From positions 1 to 11,656 of the forward strand of contig JAITJV010000033.1 in the NCBI GenBank assembly GCA_031278755.1: a stretch of 11,656 bases of DNA, in the 5' to 3' direction. The notes beneath the pieces were generated by a model. That model searched no databases. It saw only the letters and a list, made by a program, of their open reading frames with translations, and was not told the origin of the DNA. The position numbers and the translations under genes are program-made. The stretch's first letter is position 1. Each line of letters starts with the position of its first letter. Positions 1-11,523 of the stretch are shown here, piece after piece. The DNA comes from Treponema sp. (lineage in GTDB: Bacteria; Spirochaetota; Spirochaetia; Treponematales; Breznakiellaceae).

Positions 1-259
1 TGTCGCCGGGTTTCAGGTGCTTCACTTCGGAGCCGACCTCGACCACTACGCCGCCGGGTTCATGGCCCAATACAAAGGGAGGCTTTACGACAAAATCGCT
101 TATCCTCCCCATTTCATAATAATGAAGATCCGAACCGCAGACTCCCACATATTCAAGTTTTACAAGCGCTTCGTTGGGAGCGGGTTTGGGTATATCCCGT
201 TCGGTGATTTCCATTTTTCCTATTCCGGTCATTACCGCAACTTTCATTTTTCCGGTCAT
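1..259 (-). CDS. Zinc-dependent sorbitol/xylitol-type dehydrogenase, N-terminal part (partial)
   Basis: This is the first 86 codons of a medium-chain (MDR) zinc alcohol dehydrogenase; the rest lies beyond the left edge. The family oxidises polyols such as sorbitol, xylitol or L-iditol to ketoses with NAD(P)+ in the cytoplasm. Visible family features are [13 protein letters not shown] (residues 41-53, with Cys41 as the expected catalytic zinc ligand) and VLGHEPGG (63-70, with His66 and Glu67 as the next zinc-site residues). These are followed by a typical EVGSEV-x-HLKPGD stretch (75-86). The wording of the segment closely resembles sorbitol dehydrogenase rather than a generic alcohol dehydrogenase. 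I chose the ATG at 259 because GGAGG (minus strand, 269-265) lies 5 nt upstream; an ATG at 247 would be too far from it. The gene is divergent from the fructokinase-like gene at 393, which would phosphorylate the fructose made from sorbitol. The exact substrate is inferred, and the NAD-binding half is not visible. Confidence 0.88.
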
Positions 260-270
260 GGCGTCCTCCA

Positions 271-299
271 TTACATTTACTTGTGTTAGATTCTATAAT
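271..299 (+). promoter_or_regulatory. Candidate promoter of the sugar-kinase gene
   Basis: A perfect TATAAT lies at 294-299 in an AT-rich divergent intergenic region. The -35 element is weak: TTACAT at 271-276 with a 17-nt spacer. The predicted start would be near 306, leaving a leader of roughly 87 nt before the kinase ATG. A weak -10 (TATTAT, 300-295) is also present on the opposite strand and could serve the dehydrogenase gene, but no good -35 accompanies it. Confidence 0.45.
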
Positions 300-309
300 A
301 CCCTATTAT
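295..309. promoter_or_regulatory. Palindromic operator candidate
   Basis: ATAATA-CCC-TATTAT is a perfect 6-3-6 inverted repeat. It overlaps the last five bases of the TATAAT box and lies between two divergent genes of probable polyol metabolism. That is where a repressor controlling both would sit. No regulator gene is present in the window, so this is inferred from position and symmetry only. AT-rich short palindromes also occur by chance. Confidence 0.35.
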
Positions 310-324
310 CAAAAAATAAACATC

Positions 325-378
325 CCCGCCGGGAAAAGGCGGGAAAATTATATTTCCGTCGTTTGGCGACGCCGGAAA
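325..378 (+). other. Two hairpins in the kinase mRNA leader
   Basis: The first hairpin is CCCGCC (325-330) with GGCGGG (338-343) and a 7-nt loop. The second pairs TTTCCG (353-358) with CGGAAA (373-378), with an inner TCG/CGA stem (359-361 with 367-369) and a 3-nt bulge. Both lie between the predicted promoter and the Shine-Dalgarno (AAGGAG, 381-386). The first is followed by AAAATTATATTT rather than a T run, so it is not a clear terminator in the kinase direction. The leader could modulate expression, but I recognise no riboswitch. Confidence 0.35.
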
Positions 379-392
379 ATAAGGAGTTCTTC

Positions 393-1346
393 ATGATCAT
401 TGCCTGCGGCGAAGCCCTTATTGACATGGTCCCGGATACCGGCGGCGGCGGAGAAGGTTTTCTGCCCATACCCGGCGGCAGCCCCTGCAACACGGCCGTC
501 GCCGCGGGAAGGCTCGGCGTACCTGTTTCCTTTCTCGGACGGCTTTCAACGGATTTTTTCGGCAATATACTTGTCGAACACATGAAAAAGAACGGCGTAG
601 GAACGGAAATGATCGTCCGGTCCGGTGAGAATTCGACGCTTGCCTTTGTCAGGCTGGAAAAGGGAAGGGAGCCGGAGTATGTCTTTTATACCGAAGGAAG
701 CGCCGATCGATCTTTTTCGGAAGAAGACCTTCCCCCCGCCCTGCCTTCCGCCGTACGGTGCATTCTTTTCGGCTCCATAGCCATGACCATGGAGCCTGTC
801 GCCACAACAATAGAAACCCTTGTGCGCCGGGAAAGGCAGGGTCCTCTCAAGCCTGTCGTTTCCTTCGACCCCAATGTACGGCCTTTCATGATCAGGGACA
901 GGGCTGCGTATGTAAAACGTTTTGAAGGCTGGGCGGCTTCCGCCCATATTGCGAAAATTTCCGAAGCCGACTTTGACTTTATCTATCCCGGACTGGGGCT
1001 TGAAAAGTCCCTGGAAAAGATCCTCGCCATGGGGCCGTCTCTCGCCGTTACCACGTTGGGGAACAAGGGCGCCATGGCCCTTCTCCGCAGGGACGGGGGG
1101 CCTCTCAAAGTCAGCGCGCCTGTGGTCGATCTTCCCGTGGCCGACACCATAGGCGCAGGCGACACCTTTCACGGCGCTTTCCTTTCATGGCTGGAACTCA
1201 ACGGAAAAATGTCCGCCGGGGCGCTTGCCTGCTTAAGCGAAAAAGAACTGTACGACGCCCTTTTTTTTGCCAACAAGGCGGCGTCCATCGTCTGTTCCCG
1301 CCGGGGAGCGGAACCGCCCACGCTGGCGGAAGTGAAAGCCCTGTAA
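393..1346 (+). CDS. PfkB-family sugar kinase, fructokinase-like
   Basis: This 317-aa ribokinase/PfkB-family kinase transfers phosphate from ATP to a sugar hydroxyl, most likely fructose, giving fructose 6-phosphate in the cytoplasm. It starts MIIACGEALIDM, typical of fructokinases. The substrate-side signature GGSPCNTAVAAGRLG is at residues 28-42 and the SFDPNVRP strand at 157-164. The C-terminal PfkB signature DTIGAGDTFHGAFL is at 251-264, where GAGD (254-257) forms the anion hole and Asp257 is the expected catalytic base. Length is normal for the family. The ATG at 393 is chosen because AAGGAG lies 6 nt upstream and the protein then begins exactly at the first beta strand; the frame is open further upstream but that part is leader. 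It is divergent from a sorbitol-type dehydrogenase and 1 nt ahead of aroC. Substrate specificity is not proven by sequence alone; another hexose or a nucleoside is possible. Confidence 0.9.
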   Translation: MIIACGEALIDMVPDTGGGGEGFLPIPGGSPCNTAVAAGRLGVPVSFLGRLSTDFFGNILVEHMKKNGVGTEMIVRSGENSTLAFVRLEKGREPEYVFYTEGSADRSFSEEDLPPALPSAVRCILFGSIAMTMEPVATTIETLVRRERQGPLKPVVSFDPNVRPFMIRDRAAYVKRFEGWAASAHIAKISEADFDFIYPGLGLEKSLEKILAMGPSLAVTTLGNKGAMALLRRDGGPLKVSAPVVDLPVADTIGAGDTFHGAFLSWLELNGKMSAGALACLSEKELYDALFFANKAASIVCSRRGAEPPTLAEVKAL

Positions 1347-1347
1347 T

Positions 1348-2475
1348 ATGGCGGGAAATACATTCGGGACTCTTTTTACCGTAAGCACCTTCGGCGAATC
1401 TCACGGAAAGGCGCTGGGCTGCGTCGTGGACGGCTGTCCCGCGGGGCTTTCCCTTGATACCGAAGACATCGCCCGCGATCTCAGGCGGCGGAGGCCCGGC
1501 GGCGGAGGCCCGGCGGCTTCAAAACGGCGGGAAGGCGACGAACCGGAGATCCTGTCGGGGGTTTTTGAAGGGAAGACCCTTGGTACGCCCATCGCCGTTG
1601 TCATACGCAATACCGATCAGCGTTCCGCCGATTATGACAGGTTGAAGGACATGTACCGTCCCGGACACGCCGACTGGACGTGGGAGGCAAAATACGGCCT
1701 ACGGGATCACAGGGGCGGCGGCAGAAGTTCCGGCCGCGAAACGGCGGCCCGTGTGGCGGCGGGGGCCGTAGCCAGGGTTTTTCTCGCGTCCGCCGGAATA
1801 TCCGTACAGGGATGGGCGTCGTCCATCGCGGGAATAGATATTCCCGGCCCCGGGGAAGAAGGCTTTGACGTCAACGAGGCCGAAAGGAATCCCTTCCGCG
1901 TACCGCGGAAAGAGTATGACGAAAAAATAAACGATGCGCTTGAAGCGTTGAAAAAAGAGGGGGACAGCGCAGGCGGCATAGTGTCCTGCTCGGTAACAGG
2001 CCTCCCCGCGGGGCTGGGCGAACCTGTCTTCGGCAAACTCGACGCGCTTATCGCGGGCGCCATGCTTTCCATCGGAGCGGCCAAGGGCGTGGAATTCGGC
2101 GCCGGTTTTTCGGCGGCTTCCATGAAAGGCTCTGAAAACAACGACGCGCCTTTTCCCGCGGAGGGCGTGGAGACGCCGCCCGGCGCAAAGGCCTTGCCCG
2201 CGGGCGTACCTTCCCTTTCCTTCAGGACGAACAACGCGGGCGGCGTACTGGGGGGCATTTCCAGCGGAATGCCGCTTCTGTTCACCGTCGCATTCAAACC
2301 CGCCGCTTCGATATTAAGGCGTCAGGAAACGGCAGGCAGGCGGGGCGCCGGGGATCTTGTCCTTGAAGGCAGACACGACGTGTGCATAGCGCCCCGCGCA
2401 GTCCCCGTCGTCGAGGCCATGGCCGCCATCGTACTTGCCGATCTCCTCCTTATGCAGCGCTGCGGCAGGGTATGA
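1348..2475 (+). CDS. aroC: Chorismate synthase
   Basis: This 375-aa enzyme catalyses the last step of the shikimate pathway, 5-enolpyruvylshikimate 3-phosphate to chorismate, using reduced FMN, in the cytoplasm. Family signatures include TFGESHGKALG (14-24, with catalytic-type His19), the RRE substrate-binding stretch (60-62), RPGHADWTWEAKYGLRD (104-120, with His107) and GGGRSSGRETAARVAAGA (123-140). Further ones are RTNNAGGVLGGISSG (293-307) and GRHDVCIAPRAVPVVEAM (341-358, with conserved Asp344). Both conserved active-site histidines are present. Two local oddities are visible. The loop after RRRPG is one residue longer than in E. coli AroC and is glycine-rich because of a 14-nt tandem repeat. 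There is also an insertion between residues about 264 and 292 relative to E. coli. The ATG lies 1 nt after the kinase stop and the Shine-Dalgarno is weak, so translation is probably coupled. The 3' end overlaps the MATE gene start by 4 nt. Confidence 0.97.
   Translation: MAGNTFGTLFTVSTFGESHGKALGCVVDGCPAGLSLDTEDIARDLRRRRPGGGGPAASKRREGDEPEILSGVFEGKTLGTPIAVVIRNTDQRSADYDRLKDMYRPGHADWTWEAKYGLRDHRGGGRSSGRETAARVAAGAVARVFLASAGISVQGWASSIAGIDIPGPGEEGFDVNEAERNPFRVPRKEYDEKINDALEALKKEGDSAGGIVSCSVTGLPAGLGEPVFGKLDALIAGAMLSIGAAKGVEFGAGFSAASMKGSENNDAPFPAEGVETPPGAKALPAGVPSLSFRTNNAGGVLGGISSGMPLLFTVAFKPAASILRRQETAGRRGAGDLVLEGRHDVCIAPRAVPVVEAMAAIVLADLLLMQRCGRV
1484..1517 (+). repeat. 14-nt tandem repeat inside aroC
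   Basis: The unit GGCGGCGGAGGCCC occurs twice perfectly (1484-1497, 1498-1511) and is followed by a partial third copy GGCGGC (1512-1517). Because 14 is not a multiple of three, the two copies are read in different frames, giving RRRP and then GGGP. It lies in the loop after the conserved RRRPG of chorismate synthase. Confidence 0.85.
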
Positions 2476-3923
2476 AAAGAACCCCTCCCCTCATGCCCCC
2501 GGAAGACCGCCGGAACTTTTACATATCGGTTGCCGCCATTGGTCTTCCCGTCGCCCTGCAGAACCTCCTTACCACTTCCGCCGGCATGGTGGATACGATC
2601 ATGATAGGCACATTGGGGGAAAACTCCGTCGCCGCCGCGGGTATCTGCGTTCAGTATTCCATGCTGCTCCTTGCCGCATGGTTCGGTTTCTGCAACGGCG
2701 GGACGATCTTCTTCGCCCAATACTGGGGCGCCGGGGACGAACGGGGGATATGCCGCGCATACGGCATTACCTTTTCCTGCATGATGGCGGTAACCTTCGT
2801 TTTTTCCGGTTTCGCGATCTTCGCCCCCGGCTTCATCCTCAGGCTGTACACGGACAAGGAAGCCATACGCCGCGCGGCCGTTCCCTACCTCAGGATAGTG
2901 GGGCTGAGTTATCCGCTCCAGATATGGGCCGCCGCCATAAGCGCTCTTTTAAGATCCATAGAGAAGGTAAAGATTCCCCTCTTTGCTTCGGTTGTGTCCC
3001 TTATAACGAACTTTGTCCTTAACTGGCTTTTGATCTTCGGCCATTTTGGTTTTCCGAAAATGGGAATGGCGGGCGCGGCCGTCGGAACGGTATGCGCCGC
3101 GGCGGTCAACGTTCTTGTACTCTACATCTTTTGTTTCCGCGGCAAATGTTCGTATATTCTGCGCATACGGGATCATTTCAAATGGGACGCGGCTTTCATA
3201 AAAGAATATTTTTCACGGAGCTTCTTCGTGGTCTGCAACGAAATGCTCTACGGCACAGGCCAGCTTCTCATCAACATCATCATAGGCCGCCAGTCCGCGG
3301 CGGGAATAGCGGCCATGGCGGTCTTCCGCGTGCTTGAAGGCATTCTCTTTGTTTTTTTCGGCGGGCTTGCAAACGCCAGCTCCGTCATGGTGGGTAAAAA
3401 TATCGGCGCGGGAAAACACATGGAAGGCTACAGGGAAGCGCGACGCTTTACGCTGCTCTGCCCGGCGATAACCCTCGTCATCTGGCTTGCCATGCTTCCT
3501 TTCAGCCGGCAGCTTCTGGGTCTTTTCGGCCTTGGAAACGAAGCGCTCCGTTATGCGATGTACATGCTCCTCATCTATACCGTCGCCGGAAATTTAAGGA
3601 GCTGCAATTATATCACAAACAACATTTTCCGCGCGGGCGGCGAATCCATTTTCGGAACCACGGTTGAAATCTGCGGCCTTTTCTTTTTAAGCATTCCGCT
3701 CACCGCCGCGGCGGGCCTTGTCCTGCACTGGCCGTTCCTTGTTGTGTTCCTGCTTACCTATTCCGACGAAATCATACGCATTGGAATTCTGCAGCGGTAC
3801 ATGAAATCAGGCAAATGGATCAAGCCGGTTACCGGCGAAGGAATACGGGCGCTTGCGGCGTTCCGGAGCCAAATCGCCCGGGCCGGTCAAACCCGTCCCG
3901 CGAATCATCCTTTCCTGATGTAA
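2472..3923 (+). CDS. MATE-family multidrug/toxic compound efflux transporter
   Basis: This 483-aa polytopic inner-membrane protein has the layout of a MATE (NorM/DinF-like) Na+ or H+ antiporter that exports cationic compounds. About twelve hydrophobic segments are spread over the whole length in two halves. Family-like stretches are GMVDTIMIGTLG (38-49), ALLRSIEKVKIPL (158-170) and NWLLIFGHFGFPKMGMAGAA (184-203). The second half has a corresponding NASSVMVGKNIGAG (301-314). The start at 2472 forms ATGA with the aroC stop, with AGGG a few nucleotides upstream. The reading frame extends further 5' inside aroC, but there the residues are non-hydrophobic and Arg/Pro-rich, so the longer form is rejected. 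The C-terminal tail after about residue 445 is soluble. The 3' end overlaps the convergent gene at 3905-4291 by 19 bp. Substrate cannot be told from sequence. Confidence 0.92.
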   Translation: MKRTPPLMPPEDRRNFYISVAAIGLPVALQNLLTTSAGMVDTIMIGTLGENSVAAAGICVQYSMLLLAAWFGFCNGGTIFFAQYWGAGDERGICRAYGITFSCMMAVTFVFSGFAIFAPGFILRLYTDKEAIRRAAVPYLRIVGLSYPLQIWAAAISALLRSIEKVKIPLFASVVSLITNFVLNWLLIFGHFGFPKMGMAGAAVGTVCAAAVNVLVLYIFCFRGKCSYILRIRDHFKWDAAFIKEYFSRSFFVVCNEMLYGTGQLLINIIIGRQSAAGIAAMAVFRVLEGILFVFFGGLANASSVMVGKNIGAGKHMEGYREARRFTLLCPAITLVIWLAMLPFSRQLLGLFGLGNEALRYAMYMLLIYTVAGNLRSCNYITNNIFRAGGESIFGTTVEICGLFFLSIPLTAAAGLVLHWPFLVVFLLTYSDEIIRIGILQRYMKSGKWIKPVTGEGIRALAAFRSQIARAGQTRPANHPFLM

Positions 3924-4291
3924 AGGGGAATGGAACTTAACTCCTTGTCGTCGATATAAAGGACAAAATTCACCACGCCGCTGCTTTTGAAATGCAGGTT
4001 TGAAACGGTGAAGACAAGGTGGGAGACCGCCGTCGCATTGCCCGCGCCTTTTACTTCCACATTTCCGGAGATCGTTTCCATGCTCATCTCTCCGTCAAGA
4101 TCGCGCGTCTCTATGCGGAAGCTGTGGCCGGAAAATTCCCAAAGATCAAAACGCACCCGTATTACCACGGAAAGCTGCGGATGAACACAGGGAAAATTTC
4201 TGGAGATAATGGTGTCGAAGGTTCCGACTATGGTCAGTTTGCCGCCGTTCTCCTGGGCAAAATCACAGAATGTAAACAACTCAATTTTCAT
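3905..4291 (-). CDS. Conserved-type protein of unknown function (possible DUF6941 family)
   Basis: This is a 128-aa protein without signal peptide or membrane segment. The N terminus reads MKIELFTFCDFAQENGGKLT followed by IVGTFDTI. That reminds me of the small bacterial family called DUF6941, whose members begin with a similar cytoplasmic-looking 'CD-AQ-GKL-VGAFD' pattern; this assignment is from memory and tentative. Alternating hydrophobic and polar residues throughout suggest an all-beta fold, and it ends in a run of beta-like strands (HLVFTVSNLHFK, VVNFVLYIDDKELSSIPLYI). No catalytic motif is evident. The ATG at 4291 is preceded by TAAGGAG with 6 nt spacing and by a good promoter, so it is a single-gene transcription unit. 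Its last 19 bp overlap the end of the MATE gene on the other strand. Function is unknown. Confidence 0.85.
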   Translation of the reverse strand: MKIELFTFCDFAQENGGKLTIVGTFDTIISRNFPCVHPQLSVVIRVRFDLWEFSGHSFRIETRDLDGEMSMETISGNVEVKGAGNATAVSHLVFTVSNLHFKSSGVVNFVLYIDDKELSSIPLYIRKG

Positions 4292-4317
4292 GGCAGCTCC
4301 TTACCGGTCCGCCGCCA

Positions 4318-4471: not shown

Positions 4472-7400
4472 ATGATCGATTTTGCCCACCTCCATGTCCA
4501 TTCCGATTTTTCCCTGCAGGACGCCGCGGTTTCCGTCCAGAGCCTCGCGGACAGGGCGGAAGAGCTGGGGATGAAGTATCTGGCCCTCACCGACCACGGC
4601 AATATGTTCGGCGTCATGGATTTTCTTGCCGCCTGCAGGGAAACTGTCGATGAAGAAGGGAACCATATAAAACGCAAAAACCCCATCCATCCGATCATCG
4701 GCTGCGAGGCGTATGTCGCCCCGGGTTCACGGTACGAGAAAAAAGGGGCCGAAAGCGAAAACCGCTATTACCATCTGATCCTGCTGGCCGGAAGCCGCGA
4801 AGGCTACTTCAATCTGGTCAAGCTCTGTTCCTTTGCCTATACCGAAGGCTTCTACTACCGGCCCCGGATAGATGATGAATTACTGCAAAAATACCACGGC
4901 GGGCTTATAGCCCTTTCGGGCTGCGTCTCGGGGGAAATCCCCAGGCTTATCGGGGCCGGCAAACCCGACGAAGCGGAAGCCAGGGCGCGGCATTACCGCG
5001 ATCTTTTCGGGGACGGCAATTTTTATCTTGAGATTCAGGATCACGGCATACCGGCGGAATGGCTCAAGGGAAATCTGTCCCAGAGACAGATAAACGGCGT
5101 CATCGCCGGCATATCGCGGCGGACGGGCATTCCCCTGGTCGCCACAAACGATGTTCATTACCTTAGGCAGGAAGATCACGAAGCCCACGATATCCTCCTT
5201 TGTATAGGCACCGCCAGGCTCAGAAGCGAAGAACGGCGGAAGCGTTATTACAAGGATCAGTTTTACCTTAAAAGCGGCGGCGAGATGGCCGCCCTTTTCC
5301 CCGAATATCCCGAGGCTGTCGCCAACACGATCCGCATCGCGGAACGCTGCGCCGGGAATTTTTCGTTCCCCGTGGTGGAAGGCAAAGACCTTCCGAAGTA
5401 CCTTCCGGAATTTAAAATCCCCGCCGGCTTCAACGCGCGGGCCGACGTTACAAACAAGGTTCTGGAAATACTCAAGGCCCGGAAACCGCAAAAGGAAGAT
5501 CCGCCGGACAAGGTTCTCTATACGGAAGATGAAATAAAACCGGCGGCTTATCTTTATTCCCTTACCATGGACGGCCTTGCGAAACGCTACCCCGATCTTC
5601 CTTCCGGCGTCGTACAGCGGGCCGAATACGAACTGGGCGTGATCATCCAGATGGGTTTTACCGGCTATTTCCTCATTGTGGAAGATTTCATCAACTGGGC
5701 CAGGGAGCACAATATACCCGTCGGCAAGGGACGGGGGTCGGGGGCGGGTTCCATCACGGCCTATTCGCTTGGAATCACCGATGTTGAACCCCTTAAATAC
5801 AACCTGGTGTTTGAACGTTTCCTTAACGCCCAGCGCGTCAGCATGCCCGACTTCGACATAGACTTTGCCAATGAGGGCCGTGAAGACGTGATCAGATACG
5901 TTACGGAAAAGTACGGCAAGGAGCGGGTGGGGCAGATAATCACCTTCGGAACCCTGGGAGCCAAGCAGGTGATCAAGGATGTAGCCCGGACCCTCAGCAT
6001 CGGCATCCCCGAATCGGAAATGATCACCAAACTTATCCCAAAGGACCCAAAGATAACCCTGAAGAAAGCATTTGAAGGCGAACCGAGGCTCCGGGAACTG
6101 GAGCAGAATCCCAGCTATACCGAACTCTTCAGCCTGGCGCGGAAACTGGAAGGCCTCAACCGCCATTCCAGCATCCATGCCGCAGGCGTGGTAATCGGCA
6201 AGGACGCCCTCTATAATTTTGTACCCCTCTACCGCGATCCCAAGACCGGAAGCATTGCCACCCAGTACACCATGAACTTCCTGGAGGACTGCGGGCTGGT
6301 AAAGATGGACTTTTTGGGCCTTAAAACCCTGGATGTGATCAAGCACACCGGAGAACTCATCAGACAGAAGGGGGGAGAACTAAAAGACTTCAATATAGAA
6401 ACCATCCCGGAAAACGACGGGGCCGTGTTTAAGATGCTCGGCGAAGGAAAGAGTTTCGGCGTTTTTCAGTTTGAATCCGAGGGGATGCAGAATATTCTGA
6501 AACAGGTAAAACCCGACAGGCTCGAAGATCTTATCGCCCTTAACGCCCTTTACCGGCCGGGTCCCATGGACAGCATAGCCCAGTTTATCGAATCGAAAAA
6601 CGGTCTTAGAAAAATCGAATACCCCGTCCCCAGCCTGGAGTCTGTTCTGAAAGAAACATACGGGGTCATTACATATCAGGAACATGTCATGCAGGTCGCC
6701 CAGGTCGTGGCGGGCTATACGCTGGGACAGGCGGATATTCTCCGCAAGGCCATGGGGAAAAAGAAAAAAGAGACGATGGTCAAAGAGAAAGAACGGTTTA
6801 TTGAAGGCGCAATCAGGCAGGGCAACAAGCCGGCGATTGCGAATAAAATTTTTGAGCTTTTGGAACCCTTTGCGGGTTACGGTTTCAATAAAAGTCACGC
6901 CGCGGCCTATGCCATAATCGACTACCAGACCGCCTGGCTCAAGGCCAACTTTCCCGCAGAATTCATGGCGGCAAACCTTTCCAACGATATAAACAGCGCC
7001 GACAAGGACAGGCTCTCCGCCTGTATAGACGAAACCCGCAAGATGGGCCTTGTCATCGATCCGCCCGATATAAACCACTCGGACAAATATTTTACCGTTG
7101 TTGAAGGCCGCATCGTCTACGGTTTTCTGGGAATCAAGGGGCTGGGCGAATCGTCGGCCGATGAGATCATCAGACGCAGAAAAGAGGGCGGACCCTACAG
7201 GGATTTTATGGATTTCCTTAACCGCGTGGAGATCAAGACCGCCGGGAAAAAAGTAATAGAAATTCTTGTACAGACCGGCGCTTTTGACTGCTTCGGTGTT
7301 TCCCGGGCGGTGCTGCAGGGCAATCTGGAGAAAGCCGTTGAATACATACAGAACATCAAGGACGACAGACAGTTCGGCCAGTCAAGTCTTTTCATGGACA

Positions 7401-8557
7401 GCGGCGAAAAAGAATACGCCGCTTTTATATTCGGGGATTTTCCCGAAATAGACAGATCGGAAAAACTCAGGATCGAAAAGGAACTTATAGGGTTTTATTT
7501 TTCAGGCCACCCCATGGATGAGTACAGGGAACTTTGGGAAAAGACAGTCAAAACCGATCTCGGTCATCCTGAAACATTAAAGCCCGGCGCCTGCGTACTC
7601 GTGGGGATCATCAAGACCCTTAAACTCCACACCACCGGCAGCGGCGGCAAGATGGCCTTCTCATCGCTTGCGGATTATAACGGCGAGATTGAAGTTACCT
7701 TTTTTTCAGGCGCGTGGGAAAAATGCCGGGACAAGATTGAAACCGGCAAAATCGTCATGCTCAGGGGAGAAATCAAGTACCGGAAAGATCAGGATCGCTA
7801 CAGCTTCATTGCCGAAGATCTTCTCAATCCTTCCGAAGCGGAAAGCGGCGCCAGGGCGGCGGAGGCCCGTTCCAAAAAATGGGATAAATATCTCAATATC
7901 TGGAAATATTCAAAAGACCCCGACATACAGATTCTGGAAAGCGTCGATGTTCCCGGCGCGGCAAAGGGGACTTACACCATAGCGGGGCTTCTTAAATCCC
8001 TGCGGACCCATAACGATAAAAACGGAAACGAAATGGCCTTTGGGACCCTTGAGGATTACCAGGGTGAAATTGATTTGGTTTTCTTCGCCAGGGACTGGAA
8101 AAACTGCAAAGCCCTGGCCGCGGTGGATGAAATGATCGCCCTCCGGGGTTCTCTCGATCCCGCAAACGCCAGGAATCCCGGCAAACCGGGTTTCAGGGTT
8201 TCCAGCGTTCAGGATATCAACAAACTGGTCAGGACGGCGGCAAAAAAAGCGGCGATTCCGCCGGCCGCAGACCAGCCCGCCGCAACGGACCGGCCCGCGC
8301 AGCCTGCCGTCCCATCCGCCGCGGAACCGAACTACGCCGAACTGCACATCCGGCTCAAAGGCGGCGCGGCTGACAACGATGAAAACCTCTACCCCCTGCG
8401 GAAATGCCTTTCGGAAAAGCCCGGCCCCTGCACGGTCATCATACATGTCCCGCTTCCCCGCGGCGAAACGATCATACGCACCGCCACACAGACGGCCGGC
8501 GCCGCCCTCGCCGAAATCAGCGGCTTCCAGGCGGTCGCTTCAGCCTGGGGGGAATGA
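4472..8557 (+). CDS. dnaE: DNA polymerase III alpha subunit, with duplicated OB fold
   Basis: This is the replicative polymerase catalytic subunit (C-family), 1361 aa against about 1160 in E. coli. The PHP domain starts AHLHVHSDFSLQDAA. The residues expected for the metal site all appear present: His8, His10, Asp17, His42, Glu79, His101, Cys151, Asp227 and His229. The palm holds GKGRGSGAGS (418-427), MPDFDIDF (458-465, catalytic Asp462/Asp464) and VKMDFLGLKTLD (610-621, third catalytic Asp613). The fingers and helix-hairpin-helix regions follow (YRPGPMDS 694-701, GYGFNKSHAAAYA 802-814). QSSLF (970-974) fits a beta-clamp binding motif. Two homologous OB folds come next (about 1040-1118 and 1166-1250), then an Ala/Pro-rich linker (1257-1285) and a DnaE-type C-terminal domain. 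No intein is present; the extra length is the second OB fold plus linkers. The ATG at 4472 gives the expected N terminus. No strong Shine-Dalgarno is visible. The downstream side has no obvious plus-strand terminator. Confidence 0.97.
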   Translation: MIDFAHLHVHSDFSLQDAAVSVQSLADRAEELGMKYLALTDHGNMFGVMDFLAACRETVDEEGNHIKRKNPIHPIIGCEAYVAPGSRYEKKGAESENRYYHLILLAGSREGYFNLVKLCSFAYTEGFYYRPRIDDELLQKYHGGLIALSGCVSGEIPRLIGAGKPDEAEARARHYRDLFGDGNFYLEIQDHGIPAEWLKGNLSQRQINGVIAGISRRTGIPLVATNDVHYLRQEDHEAHDILLCIGTARLRSEERRKRYYKDQFYLKSGGEMAALFPEYPEAVANTIRIAERCAGNFSFPVVEGKDLPKYLPEFKIPAGFNARADVTNKVLEILKARKPQKEDPPDKVLYTEDEIKPAAYLYSLTMDGLAKRYPDLPSGVVQRAEYELGVIIQMGFTGYFLIVEDFINWAREHNIPVGKGRGSGAGSITAYSLGITDVEPLKYNLVFERFLNAQRVSMPDFDIDFANEGREDVIRYVTEKYGKERVGQIITFGTLGAKQVIKDVARTLSIGIPESEMITKLIPKDPKITLKKAFEGEPRLRELEQNPSYTELFSLARKLEGLNRHSSIHAAGVVIGKDALYNFVPLYRDPKTGSIATQYTMNFLEDCGLVKMDFLGLKTLDVIKHTGELIRQKGGELKDFNIETIPENDGAVFKMLGEGKSFGVFQFESEGMQNILKQVKPDRLEDLIALNALYRPGPMDSIAQFIESKNGLRKIEYPVPSLESVLKETYGVITYQEHVMQVAQVVAGYTLGQADILRKAMGKKKKETMVKEKERFIEGAIRQGNKPAIANKIFELLEPFAGYGFNKSHAAAYAIIDYQTAWLKANFPAEFMAANLSNDINSADKDRLSACIDETRKMGLVIDPPDINHSDKYFTVVEGRIVYGFLGIKGLGESSADEIIRRRKEGGPYRDFMDFLNRVEIKTAGKKVIEILVQTGAFDCFGVSRAVLQGNLEKAVEYIQNIKDDRQFGQSSLFMDSGEKEYAAFIFGDFPEIDRSEKLRIEKELIGFYFSGHPMDEYRELWEKTVKTDLGHPETLKPGACVLVGIIKTLKLHTTGSGGKMAFSSLADYNGEIEVTFFSGAWEKCRDKIETGKIVMLRGEIKYRKDQDRYSFIAEDLLNPSEAESGARAAEARSKKWDKYLNIWKYSKDPDIQILESVDVPGAAKGTYTIAGLLKSLRTHNDKNGNEMAFGTLEDYQGEIDLVFFARDWKNCKALAAVDEMIALRGSLDPANARNPGKPGFRVSSVQDINKLVRTAAKKAAIPPAADQPAATDRPAQPAVPSAAEPNYAELHIRLKGGAADNDENLYPLRKCLSEKPGPCTVIIHVPLPRGETIIRTATQTAGAALAEISGFQAVASAWGE

Positions 8558-8766: not shown

Positions 8767-10005
8767 TCAATACGAATCAAGATAAGAAGCCAGCAGCTTC
8801 CCGTATTCTCCTTTTATTTTCCGCTCGGCCGCCGCGATCGCCCGGTTTTCCGCTTCCGTGACGCTTATATGCCCCTCCCTTCCGCTGACGGTATACGGAA
8901 AAAGGACGCCGCCTGTAACGGAATCGGTCAGCATGGCTTCGATGGTATACCGCACAAATTTATTCTGCTGATTGGGCAGATCCACCGGATCCAGAACAAC
9001 CGACGTATCAAGCGCGTAGCGCGAATTTCTTCCCCCGCTTTTAAAGCCCTGGCTGTTAAGCGCCGCGGCAAAAGCGCCCCGTATCCGGTCCGCCTTGTCG
9101 CCTGAAACGTTGATTGCGACAGGAATATTCTCCGTTATGTTCGCCGCTTCCAGCCGGTAATCATCGCCCTTTTTCATGCTGCCTATGTCTACGCCCGTTC
9201 CCTCCGCGCCGACTATATAAAGTACATTGGCAAAGGTCCGGTTTGCATCGGCGATGGTCCCCGCCAGACGGTAGCGGGAATACCCGTTGAAGGTGTTTTT
9301 TTCGGCAGTGGTCATGGTTATAAGGTCTGAAATGATGTTCTCGTTGGACCGTATCATATCCCTGTAGAGCAGGGCGGTTTTGGCCCGCTCCATAACGGCT
9401 ACCGCATAGTGGGTCGATTTTCCGTCATACCAGTAGTCCCTGATTTCCGCTCCTACAAGGGATTCAAGCTCCACGGATGTTTTTATGGCGTTTGAAACAC
9501 CGGTAATTTCCGATGAGGATACCGCCCCGCTGGTAACAGCCTCGGAATAACGGGTTATCACGGCAAGTTCCCCCTGAATGGACTGGCCGAAAAGGGCGGT
9601 AAGATTGGCAAGGGCGTTCTTTTCGGCCGAAATCCTTTCGGTACCGTAGCCGACGGCGGCAATATACTGCTGGCGGTCAAAGACCGAATCCGGGGAAACG
9701 ACCCAGGAAGGTTCCGGCCCCCCGGAAGAACCGGAAGGGTTTGCTGAAGGTGAAGAAGCGGAGGCGCTTGTTGCGCCCGCGGTACTTGCGGCGCTTGCAG
9801 GCTGCCTGCCCGCCCCGGATGCGCCGGAAGATCCACCCTTATTCATGGCGTCAAGGGCGGCGGCGGCCGATTCCCTGGCTTTAACCGCCTGGCCGTCATC
9901 CGTCCGGCCGCCCGTATCCGCGGCCGGCGCCCCGGCGCACGCCAAACATGCGGCGCATACAAGGCATGTCAAACAAACGCGGAACGCCCGAACCATACTG
10001 TCCAT
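8767..10005 (-). CDS. LPP20-like predicted lipoprotein
   Basis: This 412-aa exported protein has an N terminus with two Arg residues (6, 9), a hydrophobic core and several cysteines (11, 14, 17, 20, 23). Cys20 (after CAA) or Cys23 (after CLA) is the best lipidation site; spirochaete lipoboxes are loose. A low-complexity Ser/Ala/Gly/Pro linker (about 58-98) probably spans the periplasm. It leads to an LPP20-type domain beginning PSWVVSPDSVFDRQQYIAAV (99-118) and GYGTERISAEKNALANLTALF. The rest (about 240-412) is an alpha/beta region I do not recognise; it contains ANITENIPVAINV and a C-terminal helix rich in Lys/Glu. The start at 10005 follows AGGAGG with 5 nt spacing. The upstream lipoprotein gene ends inside that same Shine-Dalgarno. 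A surface or cell-envelope role is inferred; LPP20 proteins have no single established function. Confidence 0.87.
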   Translation of the reverse strand: MDSMVRAFRVCLTCLVCAACLACAGAPAADTGGRTDDGQAVKARESAAAALDAMNKGGSSGASGAGRQPASAASTAGATSASASSPSANPSGSSGGPEPSWVVSPDSVFDRQQYIAAVGYGTERISAEKNALANLTALFGQSIQGELAVITRYSEAVTSGAVSSSEITGVSNAIKTSVELESLVGAEIRDYWYDGKSTHYAVAVMERAKTALLYRDMIRSNENIISDLITMTTAEKNTFNGYSRYRLAGTIADANRTFANVLYIVGAEGTGVDIGSMKKGDDYRLEAANITENIPVAINVSGDKADRIRGAFAAALNSQGFKSGGRNSRYALDTSVVLDPVDLPNQQNKFVRYTIEAMLTDSVTGGVLFPYTVSGREGHISVTEAENRAIAAAERKIKGEYGKLLASYLDSY

Positions 10006-10014
10006 AACAACCTC

Positions 10015-10707
10015 CTATTCAATTTCGGTATATGCGTCCGCGGGGGTTTCATTGTAAGAATCCACAGGGATCCTCTTGTCAAGAGCGGCGGCGGGCAGCA
10101 CCGAAAGCAGATAATCCTGTTCAAAAAGGTTAACCAGCTCTGTCGCCTGGGCGCGGGTAAAATACGTGCGTATATTAAGGGATTCGCGCGATTCCGTCGC
10201 CGCAAGCCCCTCATCATCCGCCCTGCGCTGGAGTACGGTAAGATAGGGGCTTCCGTTATTGAAACGGTACCCCAGTTCCATGCGGGGATAGGCTTTGCCG
10301 CTTAAAAACACAGCTACGTTAAGCTGGCCCCATTCCGTATACCCTTTCAACTGTCCGTATGCACGGCTTGCCTTTGCCGGCTTCAGCCCAAGATTACGGG
10401 CGTCATAATCGTCTTTGTACCGCGCAAGCGCAGCCTTAAACATGGCCCGCCCCGATCTGTCCCAATATTGCCGGTAGGTAACGGTCTGAAACCTGAACTG
10501 GAGATACACCGAATCGGTACGGGGAACAAAAACCACCGTCGCTTCCTTTTTTTCCAGGGCGCTTGAAAGAAATTTTTCAAGCTCCAATTCTATGGTTCCC
10601 AGGGATACAGGGTCCACGTCGGCAATCATATCAGGATGAGGCCTGGCGGTTCCGCAGGAAAAAAACAGGACGGTAAAAAGAAACACAGATACCATAACAG
10701 TTTTCAT
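10015..10707 (-). CDS. Predicted lipoprotein of unknown function
   Basis: This 230-aa protein starts with Lys2, a hydrophobic stretch MVSVFLFTVLFFSC and a cysteine at residue 18 followed by GTARP. That is a plausible lipoprotein signal with a relaxed lipobox (FFS before Cys). I do not recognise the mature part. It contains a beta-like stretch (ATVVFVPRTDSVYLQFRFQT), several aromatic residues and an acidic C terminus (TPADAYTEIE). It lies 9 nt upstream of the LPP20-like gene in the same direction, and its TAG stop overlaps the AGGAGG of that gene. The two are therefore probably co-translated and may act together in the cell envelope. The ATG at 10707 lacks a clear Shine-Dalgarno; it directly follows a -10-like element, which suggests a leaderless message. 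Next to nothing can be said about biochemical function. Confidence 0.82.
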   Translation of the reverse strand: MKTVMVSVFLFTVLFFSCGTARPHPDMIADVDPVSLGTIELELEKFLSSALEKKEATVVFVPRTDSVYLQFRFQTVTYRQYWDRSGRAMFKAALARYKDDYDARNLGLKPAKASRAYGQLKGYTEWGQLNVAVFLSGKAYPRMELGYRFNNGSPYLTVLQRRADDEGLAATESRESLNIRTYFTRAQATELVNLFEQDYLLSVLPAAALDKRIPVDSYNETPADAYTEIE

Positions 10708-10882: not shown

Positions 10883-11128
10883 ATGCCATTATTGCAGGTA
10901 AGGGATTTCCCTGAGGATATTTATGGGGAAATCACATTTGAAGCTCACCGGCAAAACAGAACAATAGCCCAACAGACAATTGTTTTAATAAAAAAAGGGC
11001 TTGGTGAAGAAATGCCAAACAAAGAACGAAGAAAACTTGCCATAGAAAGCACTTTTTCCCGAAATATACCCCGGGATGCAAAAATTGCCGATTATGTAAA
11101 ATTTGTCCGTGAGGATAGAGAAAGATGA
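10883..11128 (+). CDS. Ribbon-helix-helix-like antitoxin (VapB/FitA type)
   Basis: This 81-aa protein probably represses its own operon and neutralises the overlapping PIN toxin. The N terminus MPLLQVRDFPEDIYGEI resembles the beta strand and first helix of FitA/VapB-type ribbon-helix-helix antitoxins ('LQVRD-P'). A second helix follows (about 27-40, IAQQTIVLIKKGL). The C-terminal half (about 45-81) is charged and basic/acidic mixed, as expected for the toxin-wrapping tail. The ATG at 10883 is chosen because GAGGAG lies 3 nt upstream and the protein then begins at the DNA-binding strand; the frame is open further left but with no start of matching quality. It overlaps the toxin start by 4 nt (ATGA). 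Base composition is AT-rich compared with the left-hand genes, suggesting acquisition. The family call rests on short motif resemblance plus context. Confidence 0.82.
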   Translation: MPLLQVRDFPEDIYGEITFEAHRQNRTIAQQTIVLIKKGLGEEMPNKERRKLAIESTFSRNIPRDAKIADYVKFVREDRER

Positions 11129-11523
11129 CAGGTTCAATTGATGTCTGCGGGGCGATGGAAATTCTATTGCAGAAGGATAAGGCGGTTCAATTCAGTAAAA
11201 TATTACAGGAAGCCGCGCTTGTTATAGCGCCGGATTTATATATTTCTGAATTAACAAATACTTTTTGGAAATATCACCGGGCAAACATTTTTACCAAAGA
11301 TGAATGCATACAATATATAAAAGACGGAATAAATTATGTGGATAAATTTATAGACAGCAAAGAACTCTGGCAAGAGGCCTTTTCGGAAGGAATACATAAT
11401 AACCGTTCAATTTATGATATGCTTTATATGGTAGTTACAAGAAGAAATGATGGTACGCTAATAACCAATGATTCAGTTTTAGCGGCAATTTGTCAAACTA
11501 ACAATGTTCAAACATGCTATTAG
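11125..11523 (+). CDS. PIN-domain toxin (VapC-like ribonuclease)
   Basis: This 132-aa toxin is of the type that cleaves RNA with a cluster of acidic residues holding a metal ion. The PIN pattern is visible: Asp6 in SIDVCGAMEILL, Glu42 in YISELTNTFWKY, Asp98 in SIYDMLYMVVTRR and Asp116 in LITNDSVLAAIC. The order and spacing fit the family, and the length (about 130 aa) is normal. The ATG shares ATGA with the antitoxin stop, so the pair is translationally coupled. G/C content in the body is low (57 of 180 bases at 11221-11400), well below the genes to the left. The C terminus after the last Asp is short but complete for the fold. The specific RNA target cannot be read from sequence. The four acidic residues suggest an active enzyme. 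Confidence 0.88.
   Translation: MTGSIDVCGAMEILLQKDKAVQFSKILQEAALVIAPDLYISELTNTFWKYHRANIFTKDECIQYIKDGINYVDKFIDSKELWQEAFSEGIHNNRSIYDMLYMVVTRRNDGTLITNDSVLAAICQTNNVQTCY

Follow-up and report, generated by a model that had tools for sequence, protein, structure and literature searches.

The DnaE1 replicases of bacteria are architecturally uniform for the most part, as a 2013 survey of C-family polymerases found the standard layout with a single oligonucleotide/oligosaccharide-binding (OB) fold in 91% of them (Timinskas et al.; PMC3919608). The same survey reported one minor DnaE1 variant in which the OB fold is duplicated, as well as two Lactococcus PolCs with tandem OBs. Here we describe a dnaE gene located in a stretch of 11 656 nucleotides from Treponema sp. 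(contig JAITJV010000033.1; hereafter the window, meaning the whole stretch that was analysed), which encodes the alpha subunit of DNA polymerase III. The protein is of the DnaE1 type and has 1361 residues (Table 1). It carries two OB folds, termed OB1 and OB2, in an otherwise canonical architecture and thus corresponds to the duplicated-OB variant of the 2013 survey. Section 14 of that survey, where the variant is treated, does not say which organisms carry it and contains nothing on unit limits, on a repeated origin, on spread or on a mosaic gene.

Canonical DnaE1 proteins (E. coli alpha, PDB 5fku; M. tuberculosis DnaE1, 7pu7) resemble the window protein in the upstream domains, the place of OB1 and the C-terminal domain (CTD), but they possess one OB fold and are shorter, with 1160 and 1184 residues, respectively. 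The Lactococcus PolCs are also C-family replicases with a tandem OB duplication, but their OB lies N-terminal to the core (PMC3919608), suggesting a separate event. A term search of the main text of a 2026 survey (PMC12926913) returned no 'OB domain', 'OB-fold' or 'two OB', and no description of this family's DnaE was found in the open-access literature searched. The layout is a rare variant that was already reported in kind in 2013, which reduces the novelty implied by a sequence-only reading of the window. What is new here is its spread in one family, its probable origin on at least two occasions and the apparently mosaic gene.

Two OB folds in the DnaE tail

Pfam recognizes the PHP, Pol3 alpha, finger and HhH domains in this order (PF02811, PF07733, PF17657 and PF14579), and DnaE scores above the cut-offs of two NCBIfam equivalogs (NF004226, 1341.7 bits against 1002; NF005298, 1290 against a curated 1260). 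From the letters alone, it had been proposed that DnaE contains two homologous OB folds in tandem, where E. coli has a single one, at positions 7601–8155, which are exactly residues 1044–1228. The gapless alignment of residues 1044–1101 with 1171–1228 has 21 identities in 58 positions, precisely as claimed, and Pfam, profile and model agree on the two folds. PF01336 (OB fold, tRNA_anti-codon) matches as two stretches with an E value of 1.4e-21 for the protein, an OB profile built here scores 104 bits at 1042–1118 and 100 bits at 1169–1246, and structure prediction yields two barrels of five strands each rather than a single OB. The model covers 377 residues from residue 985 on and was computed from 45 aligned sequences, with a mean predicted local distance difference test score (pLDDT) of 89.2 and a predicted template modelling score (pTM) of 0.60, the latter making the relative placement of the domains uncertain. 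In the model OB1 and OB2 are followed by a confident alpha/beta CTD, in keeping with the OB-to-CTD order of DnaE1, and no Pfam family matched the CTD.

A local alignment of residues 1020–1130 with 1131–1270 scored 139, compared with a mean of 25.7 (standard deviation [sd] 4.3) and a maximum of 57 for 2000 shuffles, which rules out chance similarity. OB2 is homologous to OB1, the identity being 29% in a global alignment of both domains. The reading's attribution of most of the extra ∼200 residues to the duplication is also fair, with a repeat period of 127 out of 201 residues beyond E. coli DnaE.

The repeated unit comprises the SGHP segment and the OB fold

The repeated unit is larger than was seen in the first reading, as it starts ∼48 residues before the OB and takes in the helical SGHP segment. 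This unit of ∼122–127 residues, consisting of the SGHP segment and the OB fold, is present in two copies, flanked by the helix-hairpin-helix/clamp-motif region on one side and by the CTD on the other. Among 84 double-OB proteins, the spacing between OB starts is 122 in 36 and 119–128 in 72, and it is 127 in the window. Among the doubles we refer below to group A (which includes the window protein), group B and genus g7. A second SGHP copy is plain in some relatives, such as L014 (score 145 versus 24.1 for shuffled sequences, sd 4.5) and L017 (96 versus 19.2, sd 3.6). Since the second copy opens with the SGHP-helix segment in these and other proteins, the copied module is the SGHP segment plus the OB and not a lone OB, at least in group B and g7. 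In the window the second copy is worn (33 versus 20.0, sd 3.9; equalled by 10 of 1000 shuffles), its SGHP part having turned into a long helix of faint similarity, and in L041, a closer relative of the window, it is undetectable by the shuffle test (24 versus 20.5; 191 of 1000). For group A, faint similarity and the period suggest that the same module was copied.

Distribution of the double layout

Among 136 DnaE tails from the window's family, 87 are double and 49 are single, one of the singles being truncated where its contig stops. All 58 tails from other families of the phylum are single (18/18 and 40/40), and among the matches listed outside the family in a phylum-wide search, none aligned beyond query residue 1132. 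Because of these two results, we conclude that the double layout is not standard for the phylum; a universal double-OB layout is ruled out by the 58 singles together with the 2013 survey (PMC3919608). The comparison with other spirochaetes that had been proposed as a check places the rise of the extra OB within this part of the spirochaetes. Relatives with a taxonomic name that share the double layout are one Treponema (L002), one Spirochaetaceae (L003, whose sequence breaks off inside OB2) and one record labelled Spirochaetia (L004).

Both states, single and double, are found inside genus g3. The single OB of some g3 proteins (L023, L111 and L117) groups with first units, which reads as a loss of the second unit in these proteins. 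Tails of another kind were seen in L022, L177 and L188 (families f3, f4 and f11), single-OB DnaEs in which 148–157 residues follow the OB as against the usual ∼86–90.

Possible roles of OB1 and OB2

In E. coli, the OB (residues 960–1071) and the tau-binding domain (1079–1160) together make up a rigid tail, which swings when DNA is bound, and the OB then touches the sliding clamp through a loop (1003–1013) and a helix (1035–1043), the interface bearing R1004, K1009 and R1010, the residues mutated in R1004S/K1009S/R1010S (PMC4703070). In the cryo-EM complex the template single-stranded DNA (ssDNA) lies ∼40 Å from the OB, and the role of the OB is debated between ssDNA sensing and clamp contact (PMC4703070). 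We examined the loop residues in 40 chosen group-A proteins, using E. coli numbering. In OB1 the loop is basic at 1004 in 40/40 and at 1013 in 38/40, with 1009 and 1010 mixed. The OB2 loop is basic at 1004 in 38/40 and at 1009 in 34/40 but acidic at two positions (D at 1008 in 37/40 and D/E at 1013 in 33/40), so that a pattern of R1004, D1008, K/R1009 and D/E1013 is kept. The mean net charge is −2.0 for OB2 versus +0.6 for OB1; in the window itself OB2 is neutral, the two values being 0 and +1.

Mean pairwise identity in the same 40 proteins is 57.1% for OB1, 56.4% for OB2, 38.3% for the linker and 43.0% for the CTD. Since OB1 and OB2 are equally conserved, and more so than the linker or CTD, selection on OB2, rather than its persistence as a mere relic, is the simplest reading of these sequences. 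In 83 of the 84 doubles, OB2 shares more identity with its best match in another genus than with OB1 of the same protein, a comparison that takes the best of many matches and has a narrow margin in genus g7.

OB1, in its standard place, would keep its standard job of packing on the polymerase and contacting the sliding clamp, whereas OB2 would lengthen the tail and add a further contact, differing somewhat from the first, with the clamp or with another partner. From the sequence comparisons and the model, we tentatively prefer such a longer tail with an added contact to the idea that OB2 simply binds ssDNA as a second module, at a confidence that falls a little short of even. Two observations weigh against it. 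Acidic residues are shared by single OBs, with D at 1008 in 17/67 and E at 1013 in 15/67, so that a lone OB can work with the acidic pattern and the pattern need not mean a new partner. Moreover, the 49 single-OB members of the family manage without a second OB. Because of the loop counts in single OBs, we slightly lowered our confidence in an added contact and slightly raised that in the alternative considered next.

Under neutral expansion, the tail would tolerate an additional module, and OB2 would serve as a structured spacer that has no new partner and is gained and lost by drift and recombination. This is the strongest competitor to an added contact, although we consider it rather unlikely. 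It would account for the patchy presence of OB2 within one family, for its at least two origins (see below) and for the occurrence of both states inside g3, and it agrees with the worn linker and with the presence of the OB2 loop pattern in single OBs. A spacer should, however, drift like the linker, whereas OB2 is conserved to the level of OB1, and the only match interrupted by a stop, among those listed for the family, is that in G414.

The sequence-only reading had regarded OB2 as a second ssDNA-binding module that could alter template handling, and tandem OBs do bind ssDNA in RPA-type proteins. As stated this is not supported, although the case is one of argument only: the OB is distant from ssDNA in the E. 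coli complex (PMC4703070), and the OB2 loop carries acidic residues in a domain of negative mean charge, if not in the neutral OB2 of the window. Fold matches to OBs show no function, and no sequence kinship with RPA-type proteins was shown. Furthermore, the listed two-OB superpositions have root-mean-square deviations of 15–25 Å, so the barrels do not appear to be arranged as in RPA in the model, in which their relative placement is itself uncertain. We judge an ssDNA-binding role improbable, and an added contact remains our preferred reading.

Origins of the second unit

In a tree restricted to doubles, the units of groups A and B separate cleanly, all first units on one side and all second units on the other (support 99/98), and the usual period of ∼122 recurs in A, B and g7. 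Both features favour one ancestral duplication in the family followed by many losses, with no repeated gain. The approximately unbiased (AU) test, however, rejected one clade of all second units including those of g7 (P = 0.0054), as did a fairer test in which single-OB rows were allowed in the clade (P = 0.0059), and the lone unit of genus g176 clusters with both g7 units (98/94). For g7, the idea of one duplication serving the whole family is accordingly rejected. The test does not reject a duplication shared by A and B when the singles of g178/g188 are taken to have kept the second unit (P = 0.147, singles included), nor does it reject a separate origin for group A (P = 0.177). Two further results fit badly with one ancestral event: the units of group B cluster together in a single clade (95/89), and a clade uniting the first units of A and B is rejected (P = 0.012). 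A separate origin in g177 is marginal only (P = 0.064).

Two earlier tests (P = 1.3e-5 and 0.003) were unfair to duplication followed by loss, as they placed outside the clade those singles that may have kept the second unit. Since the fairer test rejects the inclusion of g7 and not a shared A and B duplication, the tree comparisons lead us to state that the double layout probably arose at least twice in the family, rather than three or four times. Gene conversion between units could mimic a separate g7 origin. It is possible that the g178/g188 singles lost the first unit; in the members listed the SGHP segment is intact, and an original single unit fits equally well. Taken together, we hold one ancestral duplication with losses alone to be unlikely.

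Capture of OB2 from another OB protein, which might be suspected from the low global identity of OB1 and OB2 in the window and from the single, weak sequence match of OB2 among solved structures, is not supported and highly improbable, as that one match is itself a DnaE OB (7pu7, E 0.036), the second unit of relatives also bears the DnaE SGHP segment and OB1–OB2 identity reaches 66% (L154).

A probable mosaic dnaE gene

The genome compared here as G454 belongs to the same genus as the window. Positions 1–4294 of the window match it at 76% DNA identity and two stretches further downstream at 74–75%, and aroC is nearest to the same genus (78–79%; the next full-length match is at 72% and one partial match of 174 residues at 73%). 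Within dnaE, the pieces 4472–5351 and 5567–7281 show only 67–68% DNA identity to G454, 7282–8344 has no DNA match to it, and identity rises again at ∼8340, the last 211 bases (8345–8555) matching at 73%. The DnaEs of three congeners are all single-OB. In the core tree the best protein match of the polymerase body is L067 from another genus (79%), and the AU test rejects a clade that joins the body to its own genus (P = 0.032; log-likelihood lower by 123). The CTD, in contrast to the body, is closest among the rows compared to the single-OB DnaEs of the same genus and groups with congeners (100/98, in an alignment of 46 rows and few columns).

From these comparisons the gene looks mosaic, with flanks and CTD like its own genus and a body with both OBs like other genera. 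A foreign dnaE body probably replaced the resident one in place, up to a breakpoint between OB2 and the CTD. Since the double-OB relatives of the window's body sit in other genera, we think that it was this body that came in. Several points weigh against this interpretation. Exchange in the opposite direction is possible. The core tree has 22 open forks out of 45, its bootstrap is unsettled and the rejection stands at no lower than P = 0.032. Base composition puts no foreign mark on the dnaE body, G+C content at third codon positions being 0.60–0.66 in the dnaE pieces before the CTD, 0.64–0.69 in three flanking genes and 0.76 in the CTD. The genomes involved are also drafts, that of the window consisting of 322 contigs and being 62% complete. 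Misassembly is unlikely, as it would need two joins where the alleles differ strongly.

The polymerase tail might be seen as an exchangeable cassette in this family: one- and two-OB dnaE bodies would be passed between genera, each replacing the resident body in place up to a breakpoint shortly before the CTD. Each cell would thus keep its own tau-binding end while sampling new bodies and tails, and doubled OBs would arise via unequal recombination plus tandem copying. We regard this extension as doubtful. The CTD itself is a putative counterpart of the E. coli tau-binding domain by position only.

L067 (genome G484, genus g190) has the DnaE body nearest to that of the window and stands apart from other g190 proteins, perhaps as another exchanged allele; although the core tree splits g190, a single g190 clade is compatible with the AU test (P = 0.24).

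Sequence features and neighbouring genes

The features of dnaE are collected in Table 1. QSSLF is a putative internal motif of the QxxLF type, through which the protein would likely bind the sliding clamp.

Table 1. Positions in the window of dnaE and of the features of its tail
Feature	Positions	Strand	Basis or remark
dnaE, DnaE1 type, 1361 aa	4472..8557	+	Pfam and NCBIfam NF004226
QSSLF, residues 970–974	7379..7393	+	position
First copy of helical SGHP segment, residues 994–1041	7451..7594	+	N-terminal part of repeated unit
OB1, residues 1042–1118	7595..7825	+	standard DnaE position
Linker, residues 1119–1168, with 26-residue helix (1120–1145)	7826..7975	+	probably worn second SGHP copy
OB2, residues 1169–1246	7976..8209	+	second five-stranded barrel
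Probable flexible linker, residues 1271–1283	8282..8320	+	low confidence, pLDDT <50
C-terminal domain, residues 1290–1361	8339..8554	+	where E. coli has tau-binding domain

Directly upstream of dnaE, on the opposite strand and inside the stretch matching G454, lies a gene for a DUF6941 protein (3908–4291, minus strand; PF22091, 124.7 bits). Downstream, an LPP20-type lipoprotein gene (8767–10005, minus strand) adjoins a gene for a 230-residue protein without a Pfam match at E 0.001 (10015–10707, minus strand). Two overlapping small genes on the plus strand (10883–11125 and 11125–11523) likely form a VapBC-type toxin–antitoxin pair, the first product matching the ribbon-helix-helix family PF07878 with 23.3 bits (cut-off 26) and the second the PIN domain PF01850 with 20.7 bits (cut-off 23.6), both below the cut-offs.

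Implications for replicase architecture

The architecture of the replicative polymerase is stable in most bacteria, as seen in the share of DnaE1 proteins with the standard layout (91%; PMC3919608). In this family of gut spirochaetes, a tail domain is doubled in most members examined and varies even within a genus, which provides a natural experiment on the role of the OB. The mosaic dnaE suggests, in addition, that replicase bodies may be swappable from one genus to another as long as the C-terminal contact remains native.
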